Origin: Geothrix sp.
GTDB taxonomy: Bacteria > Acidobacteriota > Holophagae > Holophagales > Holophagaceae
Assembly: GCA_030681515.1 (NCBI GenBank)
Contig: JAUXSE010000011.1
Span: 1-64,000 of the forward strand
Length of the DNA: 64,000 nt
Direction: 5' to 3'
The notes beneath the pieces are model-generated. The model did no database searches and was not told the origin of the DNA. It saw only the letters and a program-made list of their open reading frames with translations. The stretch's first letter is position 1. Each line of letters begins with the position of its first letter. Below, in pieces: positions 102 through 9,454 of this stretch. The position numbers were made by a program, and so were the translations under genes.

Positions 102-129
102 AAAAGCGCCTCAAGATGCCGAGGCGCTT
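102..129 (-). terminator. Hairpin terminator after the RHS-locus genes
   Basis: A perfect 9-bp stem (AAGCGCCTC at 104-112 pairs with GAGGCGCTT at 121-129) has an 8-nt loop. Read on the minus strand it is followed by a short T-rich run (TTTCATT). It overlaps the stop codon of the last minus-strand frame, so it probably ends the RHS-locus transcript. The U-tract is weak. Confidence 0.6.
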
Positions 130-589
130 AGGTCAGGATGATAGAGATGTGCCGTGGCTTCATAATGGCTCCAGGAACCTTTACATCTAGCGCCTTTTGA
201 ACCCCTTTTGGCACAGCTTCCATATGGGTTTCGAGCCTCAGCTTGCCTCCCAAGGTGTTAATTGGCTGCGACTTGGACCCGCCTGCGGCAGCTGCTTCTG
301 TGACAGCCCCCTGTAATGGCTTTCCTGCCCCTAGAAGTTGAGGTGCTGCCGTGAGTGCTACCTGCCCTAAGGCAAGCCCGCCCGCCACAGCCAAATCCTT
401 CGTTGGAACATCTTCACCATTCTGAGCGCGTGCATTGACCTGCGATAAGCGATCACCGCCGGGGGTGAAGACCTCGTATGCGGCATTGAGGAACCCGAGA
501 CCAATCCAGCTTGCGGTGTTGCCCTTCTCATAAGCCTCTTGACCCTTACGATCAAGCAACTGCCCAACGGATTCGCTTGTTTGCGCCAA
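128..589 (-). CDS. Orphan RHS C-terminal tail fragment (hypothetical)
   Basis: This 153-residue frame starts only with TTG and has no clear Shine-Dalgarno sequence. Its middle (AAYEVFTPGG followed by a Gly/Ala-rich hydrophobic stretch, roughly residues 35-90) resembles the linker that follows the RHS core in polymorphic toxins. The C-terminus (about 105-153) ends abruptly against a terminator. It lies 26 bp downstream of the candidate immunity gene on the same strand. I read it as a displaced tail remnant left by cassette exchange. It could also be a short live protein. No catalytic motif is recognisable. The region is visibly more AT-rich than the rest of the window. Confidence 0.45.
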   Translation of the reverse strand: MAQTSESVGQLLDRKGQEAYEKGNTASWIGLGFLNAAYEVFTPGGDRLSQVNARAQNGEDVPTKDLAVAGGLALGQVALTAAPQLLGAGKPLQGAVTEAAAAGGSKSQPINTLGGKLRLETHMEAVPKGVQKALDVKVPGAIMKPRHISIILT

Positions 590-615
590 TAGTTGTCAAA
601 GAATCATCAATTTAT

Positions 616-1023
616 CTAACTTTTTGTTCTGAACCCCTTAATAACAATCTTCTTTCCCAAATCGAAGACAACCACATCACTGGCGCGAGTCGGGGTTGTC
701 GCTAGAAGATACTGGATTGTAACGGTGAATTCCGTAGGGTCGTGCTGAAGGAATTTCCATTCAGAGATCATCTCCTTTGCTGCATTCACCAGCATTGGCG
801 GTCCTTCAAGCGAGATGACCTTCGCAACAGAGCCACCATCCGTAGAAACCTTCATCTTCACGGTGCCATTGATATTGGCGATTCGAGCATTAGCAGGATA
901 AATGGGGAGCTTGGCAGAAGAGATAATTGGAATAGAGCCTCCACTTCCTTTCTCCATCGCCCAGAGTGCGCTTGTCGAAAAGAGAATGCACAAGACCGCC
1001 AGAATGGTGATTCGAGCCCTCAT
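616..1023 (-). CDS. Exported TonB C-terminal-domain-like protein, candidate immunity protein
   Basis: The 135-residue product opens with a signal peptide (residues 1-22, hydrophobic core ILAVLCILF, likely cut after ALWA). The remaining ~110 residues fit a TonB_C fold: a PIYPANARIANINGTVKMKV opening strand, then ISLEGPPMLVNAAKEMISEW and a final strand. There is no membrane anchor or proline-rich linker, so it cannot work as a complete TonB. Its ATG shares a base with the stop of the RHS gene upstream (TAATG), so the two are translationally coupled. That position is where polymorphic-toxin immunity genes normally sit, which suggests a periplasmic immunity role. This role is an inference; a generic TonB-C domain protein is the alternative. 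Confidence 0.65.
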   Translation of the reverse strand: MRARITILAVLCILFSTSALWAMEKGSGGSIPIISSAKLPIYPANARIANINGTVKMKVSTDGGSVAKVISLEGPPMLVNAAKEMISEWKFLQHDPTEFTVTIQYLLATTPTRASDVVVFDLGKKIVIKGFRTKS

Positions 1024-2513
1024 TAGTTCACCCCCTTCATGAAGTCACTCAGCCCAACCTCTGCAACTACACCCTTGGCATCGTAGAAGTAGACTCTGCG
1101 ACTCGCGGCACCCACGACAATGTTCGTGGGCAAGAACTCATCCGCAGGTCGCTTCAAATCTCCAGGGCTCGGTCCCTGTAGAAACCCGCGCTTCCCGTTT
1201 AAGCCATCCCCCATCGGATGGATGTGCCATTTACCATCCGTCGTAGCCAAATTGTTGATTTTCCCTTGCTGATCAACAGCTTGCCCAGAGTCAACACTGG
1301 CTTCCTTATCGCCCGGCTTACTGACCTTCCCTGGAACTGCTGGGTAGACGAGCACATTGCCATCAACCCCTTTGCCCCATTGCCCCCCTTCCTCGTGGAA
1401 TCTTCCGGTCTTGTCGTCTTCTGTGGGGGCGTTGCTAGCATCCAGAGATTTCTGAATTGCTCGTTTCACTTCAACTGGAACCGAACCCACTAAGGCGTCA
1501 GTTTTTGTTTGCGCCTTCGCCGCTTCTTCCCTCTTTCTTTGTTCCTCTTTCCTTTGCTCCTCGTTCAAACCTACCTGCATGCCCGTTTCATCGTTGTCTG
1601 CGCCCTTCTGGTTTGGAACGCTTATGGCCTCCTGCATCCCCGTCGGGTCGGTACTCATGATCGGGCTGTTCCGCACATAGCTGTAGATGTTCCAACTCTG
1701 TGTGTTCTCGAAGTGTTGGTCCATGGCGGGGTCAGGGCTTGCGAAGCGTCCGAACCAGGGCACATAGAAACGTGCCTGCATGTATATCAGGCCGCTTGCA
1801 TCGGTCTGCTCGTGGTTGGTGTAGCCCTTGGAACTCTTGAAGGTGTCTGACTGCTCCAACAGCTCACCGTAGGGCAGGTACTTCTGCTGGCTTTCTTTGA
1901 GCCCAGTTGGACCCGTCACGATCCGCGGGCTTCCCAGATGATCCACCTGGGTCACGTGCATCCCTGCCGCATCGAACTCCGCAGCTTCACGGGTGCCCAG
2001 GTAGACGATGTCCCGCTTCCAGGCCAGGGTTCCGGCGGCGGCCTTTTCGTACTGCGAGACCAGCTGCCGGCCATCGTTGTAGAGGTTCACGCGGGTCTTC
2101 AGCAGCGTCGTCCCGCTCCGCTCCTCGATCACCGCCCTCAGACCCTCGGCGGTGTACTGGTACTTCTCCGTGATCCCGGTCTTCGAACTGGACAGCTGGA
2201 TCACCCGCCCCAACGCGTCGTAGACCATGGTCACTGACTTGCTCGCGTCTCCCGGTTTTTCAAAGATCTGCGTCAGGTTTCCCTGAGCATCATAGACCGC
2301 GCCTGTCAGCACGCCAGCACTGGTCGTGGCCGGAAGCTGGTTCTTCTGCCACAGCGCGGTGTCCGAGGCGCTGAGGGCCGCATTGATCACCGTCGGCACC
2401 GTGCTGGCCGTCACATAGGCCGTGGAGGCACCCTTCACCCCGCTCCACCCGGTCACCCGCTGGAGGTTGCTGGAAACCCGGTTCCCGAAAGCGTCGTAGT
2501 CGAATTGCTGCAA
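1023..2513 (-). CDS. RHS-repeat protein, 5'-truncated, with JAMM-like metallopeptidase toxin tail
   Basis: The 496-residue frame begins in the middle of RHS (YD) repeats: FDYDAFGNRV, VYDAQGNLTQ and VYDALGRVIQ are recognisable. The RHS-associated core follows (YMQARFYVPWFGRFASPDP, then NIYSYVRNSPIMSTDPTGM). After the core a variable tail carries E374/E375, HIHP (H430, H432) and SPGD (S449, D452). This order, E...HxHP...SxxD, is the JAMM/JAB zinc-peptidase signature seen in JAB-like toxin tails of polymorphic toxins, with an unusually long gap between HP and S. The N-terminal shell is missing. Upstream codons stay open back into the preceding gene, so the TTG at 2513 may not be a true start. 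A full RHS toxin exceeds 1000 residues, so this is probably a truncated or displaced 3' module. GC falls from the core into the tail. Confidence 0.8.
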   Translation of the reverse strand: MQQFDYDAFGNRVSSNLQRVTGWSGVKGASTAYVTASTVPTVINAALSASDTALWQKNQLPATTSAGVLTGAVYDAQGNLTQIFEKPGDASKSVTMVYDALGRVIQLSSSKTGITEKYQYTAEGLRAVIEERSGTTLLKTRVNLYNDGRQLVSQYEKAAAGTLAWKRDIVYLGTREAAEFDAAGMHVTQVDHLGSPRIVTGPTGLKESQQKYLPYGELLEQSDTFKSSKGYTNHEQTDASGLIYMQARFYVPWFGRFASPDPAMDQHFENTQSWNIYSYVRNSPIMSTDPTGMQEAISVPNQKGADNDETGMQVGLNEEQRKEEQRKREEAAKAQTKTDALVGSVPVEVKRAIQKSLDASNAPTEDDKTGRFHEEGGQWGKGVDGNVLVYPAVPGKVSKPGDKEASVDSGQAVDQQGKINNLATTDGKWHIHPMGDGLNGKRGFLQGPSPGDLKRPADEFLPTNIVVGAASRRVYFYDAKGVVAEVGLSDFMKGVN

Positions 2514-2529
2514 CTGTTCCCCGTAGGTA

Positions 2530-6408: not shown

Positions 6409-6899
6409 CAACGCCTCCGCTGGACCACCGAGCGGGCCATGAGGGCCAGCGCCACCAGGATGAGGGCCCCCCAGACCCAGCGTTGCCATGCGTGGGTGGC
6501 GGTCTGGATTTTCTTGGATGCCTCGGCCTTGCGGATGTTCTCTTCGATGGACAGCTTGGACTGGGCTTCGCGGGCCTCCTTCACGGCCTTCTGGGCGGAC
6601 TCCCGGGAGGCCTGGAGATCCTTCGTGGCGGCCTCCTGCTCCTCCTGCACGCCCAGCACGGCGATCGTCTTCGGCGGAGCCGGCTTGGGCCTGAATCCGG
6701 CGGGGACGGCGGGGGCGTCCTCCTCGAAGGAGACGGGGCCCAGGCCGTTCTCGATGGATTCAGTCAGGGCCTGGATATCCTCCCGCAGGGCCTGCAGCAC
6801 CTGGTTCTGGCGGTGGAGCTGGGCGCCCTGGATCCAGAGCAGCCCCAACTGGAGGGCCAGGAAGGTCGGGATGGCCCATCGAAGGGACGTGCGGATCAT
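6408..6899 (-). CDS. Two-TM coiled-coil membrane protein (hypothetical)
   Basis: The protein (163 aa) has a hydrophobic segment near the N-terminus (about 8-25, WAIPTFLALQLGLLWIQ) and one near the C-terminus (about 142-159, WVWGALILVALALMA). Between them are two charged helical stretches (residues 28-55 and 85-130, rich in E, K, A and Q) separated by a proline-rich segment (AVPAGFRPKPAPP). Its start overlaps the end of the PP2C gene by 4 bp (ATGA), and its stop overlaps the SirB1-like gene, so the three are one translationally coupled unit. No family is recognised. Confidence 0.8.
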   Translation of the reverse strand: MIRTSLRWAIPTFLALQLGLLWIQGAQLHRQNQVLQALREDIQALTESIENGLGPVSFEEDAPAVPAGFRPKPAPPKTIAVLGVQEEQEAATKDLQASRESAQKAVKEAREAQSKLSIEENIRKAEASKKIQTATHAWQRWVWGALILVALALMARSVVQRRR

Positions 6900-9454
6900 G
6901 CGTGCTCCCTCCCCAGGATAAACAAAGTCCGGTCATCGCGGTTCTGGGTATCGAAGGCGGCCACGTCCTGGAAGACGGCTTCGCAGGCCGCCCGGGGGCT
7001 GCCGGTGCCCCAGAGGCGGCGCAGCTGGGCGCTGAGACGGCCCAGGCCGTAGAGTTCGCCTTCCCGGTTCATGGCTTCGGACAGCCCATCGCTGTAGAGC
7101 ACCATCCAGCCCTTCGGGGGGAGGACGCCCTCGATCACCTGCCAGTCGCTGGGCCCCGCGGGGCGCAGGCCCAGGCCTCGGCCGTGGGGGACCATCTCGC
7201 GGGAGGTCTCCTCGGTCAGTCCCTGGAGCACCAGGGCGCCGGGGTGGCCCGCTCGCGCCAGGCGGTAGTTCCCGGCCGCGTCCCATTCCAGCAGGATCAG
7301 GGTGAGGAAGCCCTGCTGGCCGAGCAGTTGCCGCAGGGTCTGGTCCAGGGAACAGAGCATCTCCTCCAGCGATTGATCTTCCCGCTGGGCGGCCTGCTCA
7401 AGCAGCGCGGTGGCCTGGGCCATGTAGAGGGCCGCGGCGAGCCCCTTGCCGCAGACATCGCCCACGGCCGCGAGCCAATGGCCGCTGGGACGGCGCTTGA
7501 CGAAGAGCAGGTCGCCGCCGGTTTCGAGGGCCGGTTCCAGGCGCAGGGCCACCTGGAAGCCCGGGATGGGGGGCAGGTGGGAGGTGATCAGGCTTTCCTG
7601 GATGCGCCGGGCCGTCTCCAGCTCCTGGCTGAGGCGCTCCTGGGCCACCAGGCGCTGGTGCATCACGGCGGTCTCCAGCACCTGGCCGGCGGTCAGGGCC
7701 ACCTCGCGCAGCAGTTCGCGGTCCTCGCGGCCATAGTTCAGCTCGGCGTACTTGCCGCCCAGCAGCACCAGGCTGTGGGGGGCGTCCCCGGCGAGGATCA
7801 GCAGCAGGAGCTGGGCTTCCAGCGCGTCCACATGGGCCCGCAGCGTGCCGCCCTGATCCCGGATCCAATCGGCCTCCTCGCTGCCCATGCCGAGCACCAG
7901 CTCGCGGTTTTCGCGGGCGAGGCGGAGCAGGCCCGGGGGGATCCGGAGCGGCTGGGGCGGGAAGTGGATCCGGCGGTCGTCCCGATCGGTGGATTCGGCC
8001 GCGGGGAGCATCACCTGGCGATCCTCGATGGGGAGGATCTCCAGGAGCTGAGGCTGGAAGGCCTCGCCCAGGGCGCGCCGCAGCGACTTGAGGAGGGATG
8101 TCTCGCTGAACCGCTTCCGGGGCTCGCGCACGGCGCTGAGGGCGATGTCGCGGGTGCTGGAGAAGTCCCGGCGGAAGCGGCGGCGGATGCCCTTCAACAG
8201 ACCCCGCAGGGCCCAACCCAGGGGCAGGGCGAGGAAGCCGATCAGGGCCCCGGCCCAGCCCGGAGGAATCGAAGCCAGGTGCGAGAAGGCCCAGGCCAGG
8301 CCGCCCAGGTAGGCCGCGGCCGTGAGGCCAAGGATCGCCATGTAGCTCACCCAGCGCAGCAGCACCTTGCGAACGTCGAAGAGGCCGTGGCGGAAGATGG
8401 CGAAGGCGAAACTCAGCGGCAGCAGCGGCGCCGGCAGCATGAAGATGAACGTCTGGCGCCGGAAGAGCAGGCTGTCCCCGAACCTGGCCCGGAGGACGGT
8501 CCATGCCACGAGATCCAGACACAGGACCGCCGCCACCAGCAGCGAGGGCAGAAGGGCCTTCCGGAGGCGCTCCGGCGCGCGGAAGGTCCCCGCCACGAAG
8601 CATCCGAGGCCCGTGAGGGCTGCGGCGAGGTAGAGCGGGATCGGCAGCGATCGGAAGGCGAGGAGCAGGTGGCGGAACACGCCGTCCGGGGGAGTTCCCG
8701 CGGGCGTCCTCAGCAGGCCATCGCCGGCCAGCATCCAGAGGCGCAGGAGGACCTGCACGAGGGCCAGCAGGGCGAAGGTGCCATAGATCGCCTGGAGGAA
8801 CCGCCGGTTCTTCCGCCACTCGAAGGGGTGGGGGAAACGCAGGAAGAAGTGGATCCAGAGGGGGGGCAGCAGGGCTCCCGCCGCGCCGGCCATGAGGGTG
8901 ACGACGATGCCCATGGCCACCGGCGCGCTGCCCGAGAGGATCGCTCCGGACAGGAGGAGGGTGGTGGCCGCCAGGTAGAAGAAATGCCGCGAGGATTTGC
9001 GCTCCGGGGCCGACAGCACCACCAGCAGGCTGATGGCCCAGGCGAGGAAGCCGTTCGCCAGCAGGGCCAGTTGCACCAGGTCCAGGGGTTTCACCAGACG
9101 GATGGGGATCAGGATCTGCCGGCCCTGGCGCTTCACCGTGTAGATCAGGATGGTGCCCTCGGATTTCCCGTTGATGAAGCGCTGGGCCTTCAGCGTGCCT
9201 TCCTGGGTGGCCTCATAGGCCCGCCCCTGGATCTTCACCAGCTCGTCGCCCTCCAGGAGCCCCGCATCCTCCGCGACCCCCTCCGGCAGGATCTCGCGGA
9301 TGACGATCTTTCCGTTTTCCACCACCCAGGAGCACTGATCATCCGAGGCGGCATAGACCCACTGATTGAGCGCGAACGAACCGATGGCCAGACCGAGGCA
9401 GACGAAACTGATCCAGAGCAGGCGCCAGCGGATGCGTTTCAGGTAGGGATTCAT
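6896..9454 (-). CDS. Membrane PP2C/SpoIIE-type serine phosphatase with N-terminal PDZ domain
   Basis: The 852-residue protein begins with one TM helix (about 11-31) and a PDZ domain (about 40-105, ILPEGVAEDAGLLEGDELVKI). A polytopic region follows (about 115-400, seven or so hydrophobic segments), then a cytosolic linker that may hold a degenerate GAF fold (about 430-600). The C-terminal SpoIIE/RsbU domain (about 615-850) keeps its metal-binding motifs: GGDLL, GDVCGKGLAAAL, YSDGLSEAM and DDRTLFIL. RsbU-type phosphatases dephosphorylate anti-sigma-factor antagonists in partner switching. No anti-sigma or STAS partner is in this window, so the target is unknown. Its ATG overlaps the divergent SDR region. 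Confidence 0.9.
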   Translation of the reverse strand: MNPYLKRIRWRLLWISFVCLGLAIGSFALNQWVYAASDDQCSWVVENGKIVIREILPEGVAEDAGLLEGDELVKIQGRAYEATQEGTLKAQRFINGKSEGTILIYTVKRQGRQILIPIRLVKPLDLVQLALLANGFLAWAISLLVVLSAPERKSSRHFFYLAATTLLLSGAILSGSAPVAMGIVVTLMAGAAGALLPPLWIHFFLRFPHPFEWRKNRRFLQAIYGTFALLALVQVLLRLWMLAGDGLLRTPAGTPPDGVFRHLLLAFRSLPIPLYLAAALTGLGCFVAGTFRAPERLRKALLPSLLVAAVLCLDLVAWTVLRARFGDSLLFRRQTFIFMLPAPLLPLSFAFAIFRHGLFDVRKVLLRWVSYMAILGLTAAAYLGGLAWAFSHLASIPPGWAGALIGFLALPLGWALRGLLKGIRRRFRRDFSSTRDIALSAVREPRKRFSETSLLKSLRRALGEAFQPQLLEILPIEDRQVMLPAAESTDRDDRRIHFPPQPLRIPPGLLRLARENRELVLGMGSEEADWIRDQGGTLRAHVDALEAQLLLLILAGDAPHSLVLLGGKYAELNYGREDRELLREVALTAGQVLETAVMHQRLVAQERLSQELETARRIQESLITSHLPPIPGFQVALRLEPALETGGDLLFVKRRPSGHWLAAVGDVCGKGLAAALYMAQATALLEQAAQREDQSLEEMLCSLDQTLRQLLGQQGFLTLILLEWDAAGNYRLARAGHPGALVLQGLTEETSREMVPHGRGLGLRPAGPSDWQVIEGVLPPKGWMVLYSDGLSEAMNREGELYGLGRLSAQLRRLWGTGSPRAACEAVFQDVAAFDTQNRDDRTLFILGREHA

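Follow-up and report, generated by a model that had tools for sequence, protein, structure and literature searches.

A TonB_C-fold protein as candidate exported immunity partner of a metallopeptidase-type RHS toxin tail in Geothrix sp.

The window, i.e., the whole 64,000-nucleotide stretch of Geothrix sp. DNA that was analysed, carries a small gene at positions 616-1023 (minus strand) whose 135-aa product is, in our judgement with high probability, the cognate exported immunity protein that blocks the periplasm-acting RHS metallopeptidase tail encoded just upstream. The pairing of this TonB_C gene with the toxin tail is well supported. The gene order, the overlap of the two genes, the export signal in the sequence, the fold, the limits of the module, and the repeated pairing with metallopeptidase-type tails are direct observations; we infer direct inhibition, the binding of the toxin tail and its site, catalytic activity, and action in the periplasm.

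On the reverse complement, the junction of the two genes reads ...GTGAAC TAA TG AGG..., and the ATG of the TonB_C gene and the stop codon of the RHS gene have two bases in common (TAATG). A Sec-type signal peptide, MRARITILAVLCILFSTSALWA followed by ME, was predicted by eye for residues 1-22 (958-1023, minus strand); residues 1-28 have low confidence in the structural model. The TonB_C domain (PF03544) comprises residues 40-103 (715-906, minus strand), with a profile score of 29.5 bits against a curated cut-off of 24.6 (30.1 bits in the genome search). The NCBIfam profile tonB_Cterm scored 19.2 bits, under its cut-off of 27.1, and some homologues of the protein also fall under the PF03544 cut-off (23.0, 21.4, and 15.5 bits). 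In the AlphaFold2 model, which was calculated from a six-sequence alignment, the core (residues 31-110) has pLDDT values of 77-91. A Foldseek search of the PDB with this model matched the C-terminal domain (CTD) of E. coli TonB (1u07; E 2.7e-4, probability 1.00, TMt 0.66-0.73). By its profile score and its TonB CTD fold, the protein belongs to the TonB_C family. The model contains two further strands past the domain; this C-terminal extension (619-714, minus strand) is shared by the TonB_C proteins encoded next to toxins, and few ordinary ones have it.

The distance between signal peptide and domain is ~17 residues, which leaves neither an anchor nor a Pro-rich linker. The protein resembles TonB CTDs (PF03544; 1u07, 2gsk) in its fold and in the YP / AR / G / DG / G / W-x-F pattern, but it differs from TonB CTD proteins in having no N-terminal anchor or Pro-rich linker, in its C-terminal extension, and in its location behind an RHS toxin. 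With a cleavable-type signal peptide and these few residues preceding the domain, it is not a TonB energy transducer; we rejected an ordinary TonB identity on the missing anchor and linker and on the different placement. The overlap, the signal peptide, the TonB-C fold, and the absence of an anchor or linker had each been claimed in the original prediction, and each was found as described. A single-protein scan of 85k genomes returned no relatives of the immunity protein; the pattern step of that scan was probably too strict.

In the window's RHS gene, a variable C-terminal tail comes after an RHS core. The core portion (1503-2528, minus strand) corresponds to the C-terminal section of an RHS protein, with YD repeats and a Rhs_assc_core domain (71 bits); it is truncated at the 5' end, where it runs into the final part of an unrelated gene. 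The tail (159 aa plus stop; 1023-1502, minus strand) is unlike the tails of other RHS genes and carries a JAMM/JAB-like signature, E...HxHP.G...SxxD (E38, H93-x-H95-P, S112-x-x-D115), assigned from the sequence and from alignment A1 of JAMM tails. In this alignment the E, the second H, the S, and the D are invariant; the first H of HxH is a Tyr in the tail from genome G095, which may lack activity. Searches of Pfam (up to E 10), NCBIfam, and the PDB sequence families gave no match to the 159-aa tail, and the JAMM alignment, run as a profile against the PDB, gave nothing relevant. The model of the tail has a pLDDT of 74, and its structural matches, to deaminase-fold and JAB proteins, are weak (E at least 0.02). 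The JAMM label is thus based on the motif, with the fold search only suggestive. Like orphan rhs-CT modules, the window's copy is 5'-truncated and has no delivery-competent N-terminus; with its 5' end lost, it may not be delivered.

The original prediction had proposed that co-occurrence of this TonB-C type with JAMM-tailed RHS genes be checked in related genomes. Among 77 genomes of the same family, the JAMM tail and a TonB_C gene of more than 70% identity are each present in two, and these are the same two genomes. The second genome, G035, shares a single DNA match with the window (83% over ~907 bp; 602-1508, minus strand), and the RHS loci are otherwise different. The match opens 6 bp ahead of the tail and ends 14 bp past the TonB_C stop; the flanks are not shared. 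At the protein level, the tails are 91% and the TonB_C proteins 76% identical, whereas identity between the RHS cores does not exceed 40%, and their DNA does not match. Because the match is limited to the tail and the TonB_C gene, these two together are the unit that moves; transfer of the whole RHS gene was rejected on the same grounds. In G035, the RHS gene is full length (2290 aa), its product starts with a signal-peptide-like stretch, and its stop codon is overlapped, as in the window, by the ATG of the TonB_C gene. The TonB_C gene of G035 is followed by a second RHS-CT and by one more small gene with an exported product, and together these have the look of a displaced rhs-CT/immunity array. 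By analogy, the sequence behind the immunity gene in the window (128-589, minus strand) is probably the remnant of a second, displaced RHS linker and tail. Displaced rhs-CT/immunity arrays are known from enterobacterial Rhs systems, in which tail and immunity gene are exchanged as a unit and orphan tails lie downstream. The arrangement described here is similar in both respects; it differs in occurring in Acidobacteriota, in its metallopeptidase-type tails, and in that relatives of the immunity gene are also found as integron cassettes.

A search of 396 Acidobacteriota genomes with the tail alone recovered six more RHS tails. In G095, from another family, a JAMM RHS tail (38% identical) is followed by an exported TonB_C protein whose gene overlaps the stop codon. 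TonB_C genes adjoin three of the nine readable JAMM-RHS loci, which compares with an upper limit of 3.8% for the background in the RHS survey described below (p ~0.004; p 0.035 for 2/8 loci when the two sister genomes are counted once). The other loci have different exported neighbours: at G342, G363, G349, G396, L037, and L038, the next genes encode small proteins of two other families, which also have signal peptides. Export is a feature of every readable JAMM-RHS neighbour, which points to a site of action beyond the cytoplasm and is consistent with the periplasmic toxin action that the original prediction took an exported immunity protein to imply. In tblastn searches of plasmids, the JAMM tail, the immunity protein, a second immunity protein, and the HEGSH tail had no matches, and viral contigs searched with the JAMM alignment had none either. 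At L034 (3754-6453), a JAMM domain forms the C-terminus of an 899-aa protein with a capsid-like gene some distance after it; this protein looks prophage-borne and has no exported neighbour.

A profile of the TonB_C proteins led to loci with two other tails, HEGSH and HELGH, and these tails were then used as queries on their own. In G311 (L080), an exported TonB_C gene directly follows a 1416-aa RHS with a HEGSH tail, and in G318 (L085) one directly follows a stand-alone HELGH tail. A survey of further profile matches added an RHS with a HEFAH tail and a TonB_C gene in G334 (L100). At this last locus, an in-frame stop (L100:2986-2988; G334:C136) separates the RHS core from the HEFAH tail; the tail and the TonB_C gene are still open. 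With the HELGH/HEFAH profile, 376 genomes yielded three loci. An exported TonB_C gene comes next at each of them, and one locus (G145) was new, reached through the tail alone. The HEGSH search of 247 genomes gave six new loci, four of them with an exported TonB_C gene (G156, G125, and two in G257; p ~3e-5 against the 3.8% background upper limit); the tail in G156 is cut by the contig end, and its HExxH is not visible there. In total, 11 toxin-adjacent TonB_C genes were found in ten genomes from six Acidobacteriota families, next to three unrelated metallopeptidase-type tails. A survey covered 95 RHS ends in 16 genomes: a TonB_C gene came next after 5 of the 17 HExxH tails and after none of the 78 others (Fisher p 1e-4), a background whose upper limit is 3.8%. 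Since 8 of the 16 genomes were picked for holding such tails, the 5/17 is biased upward, and 0/78 is the useful figure. The reading of the gene as possible immunity, put forward in the original prediction, is supported by the co-occurrence, the limits of the DNA module, the G095 locus, and the two other metallopeptidase-type tails.

The two remaining HEGSH loci have different neighbours. At L132, the tail is followed by an unrelated small, exported-looking protein. At L134 (671-1231, minus strand; the same as L174, G207:C41), an exported protein without a match in Pfam lies behind a HEGQH RHS tail of the HEGSH type. Its mature end would begin with CLC, a start that recalls the metal-binding N-terminus of TIMP inhibitors. 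The small exported proteins behind HExxH RHS tails at L132, L206, L216, and L218, possibly OB-folds as judged by eye, are candidates for other immunity families against metallopeptidase toxins.

Toxin-adjacent TonB_C proteins have 47-75 residues past the conserved W of the domain, compared to 25-28 in 18 of 20 control TonB_C proteins, and a [LF].P..[VI].[VI] stretch is frequent in this extension. According to the original prediction, the immunity reading would be refuted if the same gene were commonly found without RHS genes. This is so only in part: distant relatives (~25-36%) occur as orphans without toxin genes, four of them in integron arrays, but none of the close homologues is an orphan. 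The orphans in the same genus also carry the extension. In four same-genus genomes they lie in long runs of small genes with canonical attC sites (~124 bp) between them, which identifies them as integron cassettes. These chromosomal arrays (L021, L022, L023, and L024, in G049, G004, G021, and G018, respectively) have attC sites of the form GCCTAAC...GTTAGGC and TonB_C-immunity-like single-gene cassettes; in L021, for example, the cassette gene at 6623-7063 lies between attC sites at 6484-6607 and 7079-7202. TonB_C proteins with a similar extension and no RHS gene alongside were also seen at L078:5646-6122 (G095:C22), L077:7274-8128 (G233), and L079:81-974 (G099). Two of the three are longer, and all may possibly be orphan immunity genes. 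We rejected the notion that every short exported TonB_C gene encodes immunity: an RHS core lies near only 1 of 20 short or stand-alone matches (L100), and many of the 20 are near chemotaxis or other genes and have no extension.

In the mechanism we propose, the RHS tail would be a JAMM/JAB-type zinc hydrolase, probably a peptidase, active in a competitor's periplasm. The 135-aa TonB_C protein would reach the periplasm by its signal peptide, and there its TonB-C-like domain and C-terminal extension would bind the toxin tail and block it, with the zinc site or its surroundings as the most likely place. The meeting of the two proteins in the periplasm is proposed by analogy with the closest proven case, VgrG2b of Pseudomonas aeruginosa, a metallopeptidase toxin that kills from the periplasm and is bound and neutralised by the small exported protein PA0261, which needs its signal peptide (PMC6899460). 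Like the Tpe-Tpi pair VgrG2b/PA0261, the pair in the window would join a zinc metallopeptidase toxin active in the periplasm to a small exported immunity protein whose gene lies alongside. The two pairs differ in the carrier, a T6SS VgrG as opposed to an RHS protein, and PA0261 is described in the consulted parts by its conserved cysteines, with no mention there of a TonB_C domain (PMC6899460); the comparison concerns their way of working. A single fold facing three tail types could be a general inhibitor of zinc sites, a scaffold on which fine specificity evolved separately, or a mimic of a shared target.

The last of these corresponds to a rival reading in which the tails would cleave a periplasmic domain of the TonB/TolA type. 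The immunity protein would then be a soluble mimic of that domain, a decoy or competitor and not a purpose-built inhibitor. The fold is that of the TonB CTD itself, and three unrelated metallopeptidase-type tails share it as their immunity fold, as this reading would have it; against it, most ordinary TonB_C proteins have no extension like that of the immunity proteins, and other exported families also serve the same tails. We regard it as rather improbable. The wider version, in which TonB_C plus extension is a general immunity class against periplasmic RHS metallopeptidases of unrelated folds that mimics a TonB/TolA-type target, with the loose integron cassettes as portable resistance, appears to us equally doubtful. 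It is less probable still that the TonB_C protein helps the RHS toxin to be released, to fold, or to be exported, or that it is a hitch-hiking stand-alone envelope protein. The family does occur as orphans, and solitary exported TonB_C genes, some without the extension, lie away from RHS genes; yet the gene moves together with the tail, independently of the RHS core, other exported families occupy the same place behind related tails, and TonB_C was found at 0/78 of the non-HExxH ends surveyed above.

We give a similarly small chance to the tail being a nuclease, and so a cytoplasmic toxin to which an exported protein would not be the antidote. Zhang et al. 2012 (PMC3482391) proposed JAB toxin families as nucleases and lean to this activity; the same source names Imm65 as the partner of Tox-JAB-1 and Imm-NTF2 as that of Tox-JAB-2, and gives Imm65 a signal peptide and a lipobox. 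Against a nuclease stand this listing, the HExxH tails with the same TonB_C partner, and the exported neighbours of all readable JAMM-RHS loci, which make a nuclease role less likely here. A join made in the draft assembly at the contig end, with no real locus behind it, is unlikely, but is the least improbable of these alternatives. The window starts at base 1 of its contig (G000:C20), and the start of the RHS fragment falls at the final codons of a gene with conserved counterparts in 15 of the 16 sister genomes searched. None of the sister genomes carrying that gene has an RHS core at its location, and several, where the large downstream reading frame is visible, have a hydrolase-like gene there. 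The RHS fragment meets the very end of this gene at 2514-2545, by insertion or by a contig-end misjoin. A contig starting at base 1 allows both an inserted orphan RHS module and an assembly join; the pair of tail and TonB_C gene is itself unaffected either way, and it recurs with a full-length RHS gene inside the single-contig genome G035.

With a cognate exported immunity protein as the preferred reading, the window's pair resembles the Tox-JAB-1/Imm65 and Tox-JAB-2/Imm-NTF2 systems in having a JAB/JAMM-like RHS tail with an adjacent immunity gene and, for Imm65, a signal peptide; it differs in that its tail matches no Pfam family and in its TonB_C immunity fold. The consulted text of Zhang et al. 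2012 (PMC3482391) nowhere contains the word TonB, and the openly accessible papers searched give no description of TonB_C as an immunity fold. The RHS toxin/immunity pair is a known kind of system, and the TonB_C immunity fold is new within that literature. If the reading is correct, the TonB C-terminal fold would join the immunity folds and be tied to one functional class, the metallopeptidase toxins, in at least three unrelated forms. A short exported TonB_C protein with a C-terminal extension behind an RHS gene would then be annotated as immunity and not as iron transport. The finding also raises the question of whether one fold inhibits several peptidase folds or copies their common target. 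The orphan relatives in integron cassettes suggest that immunity genes of this kind may be gathered as portable resistance.
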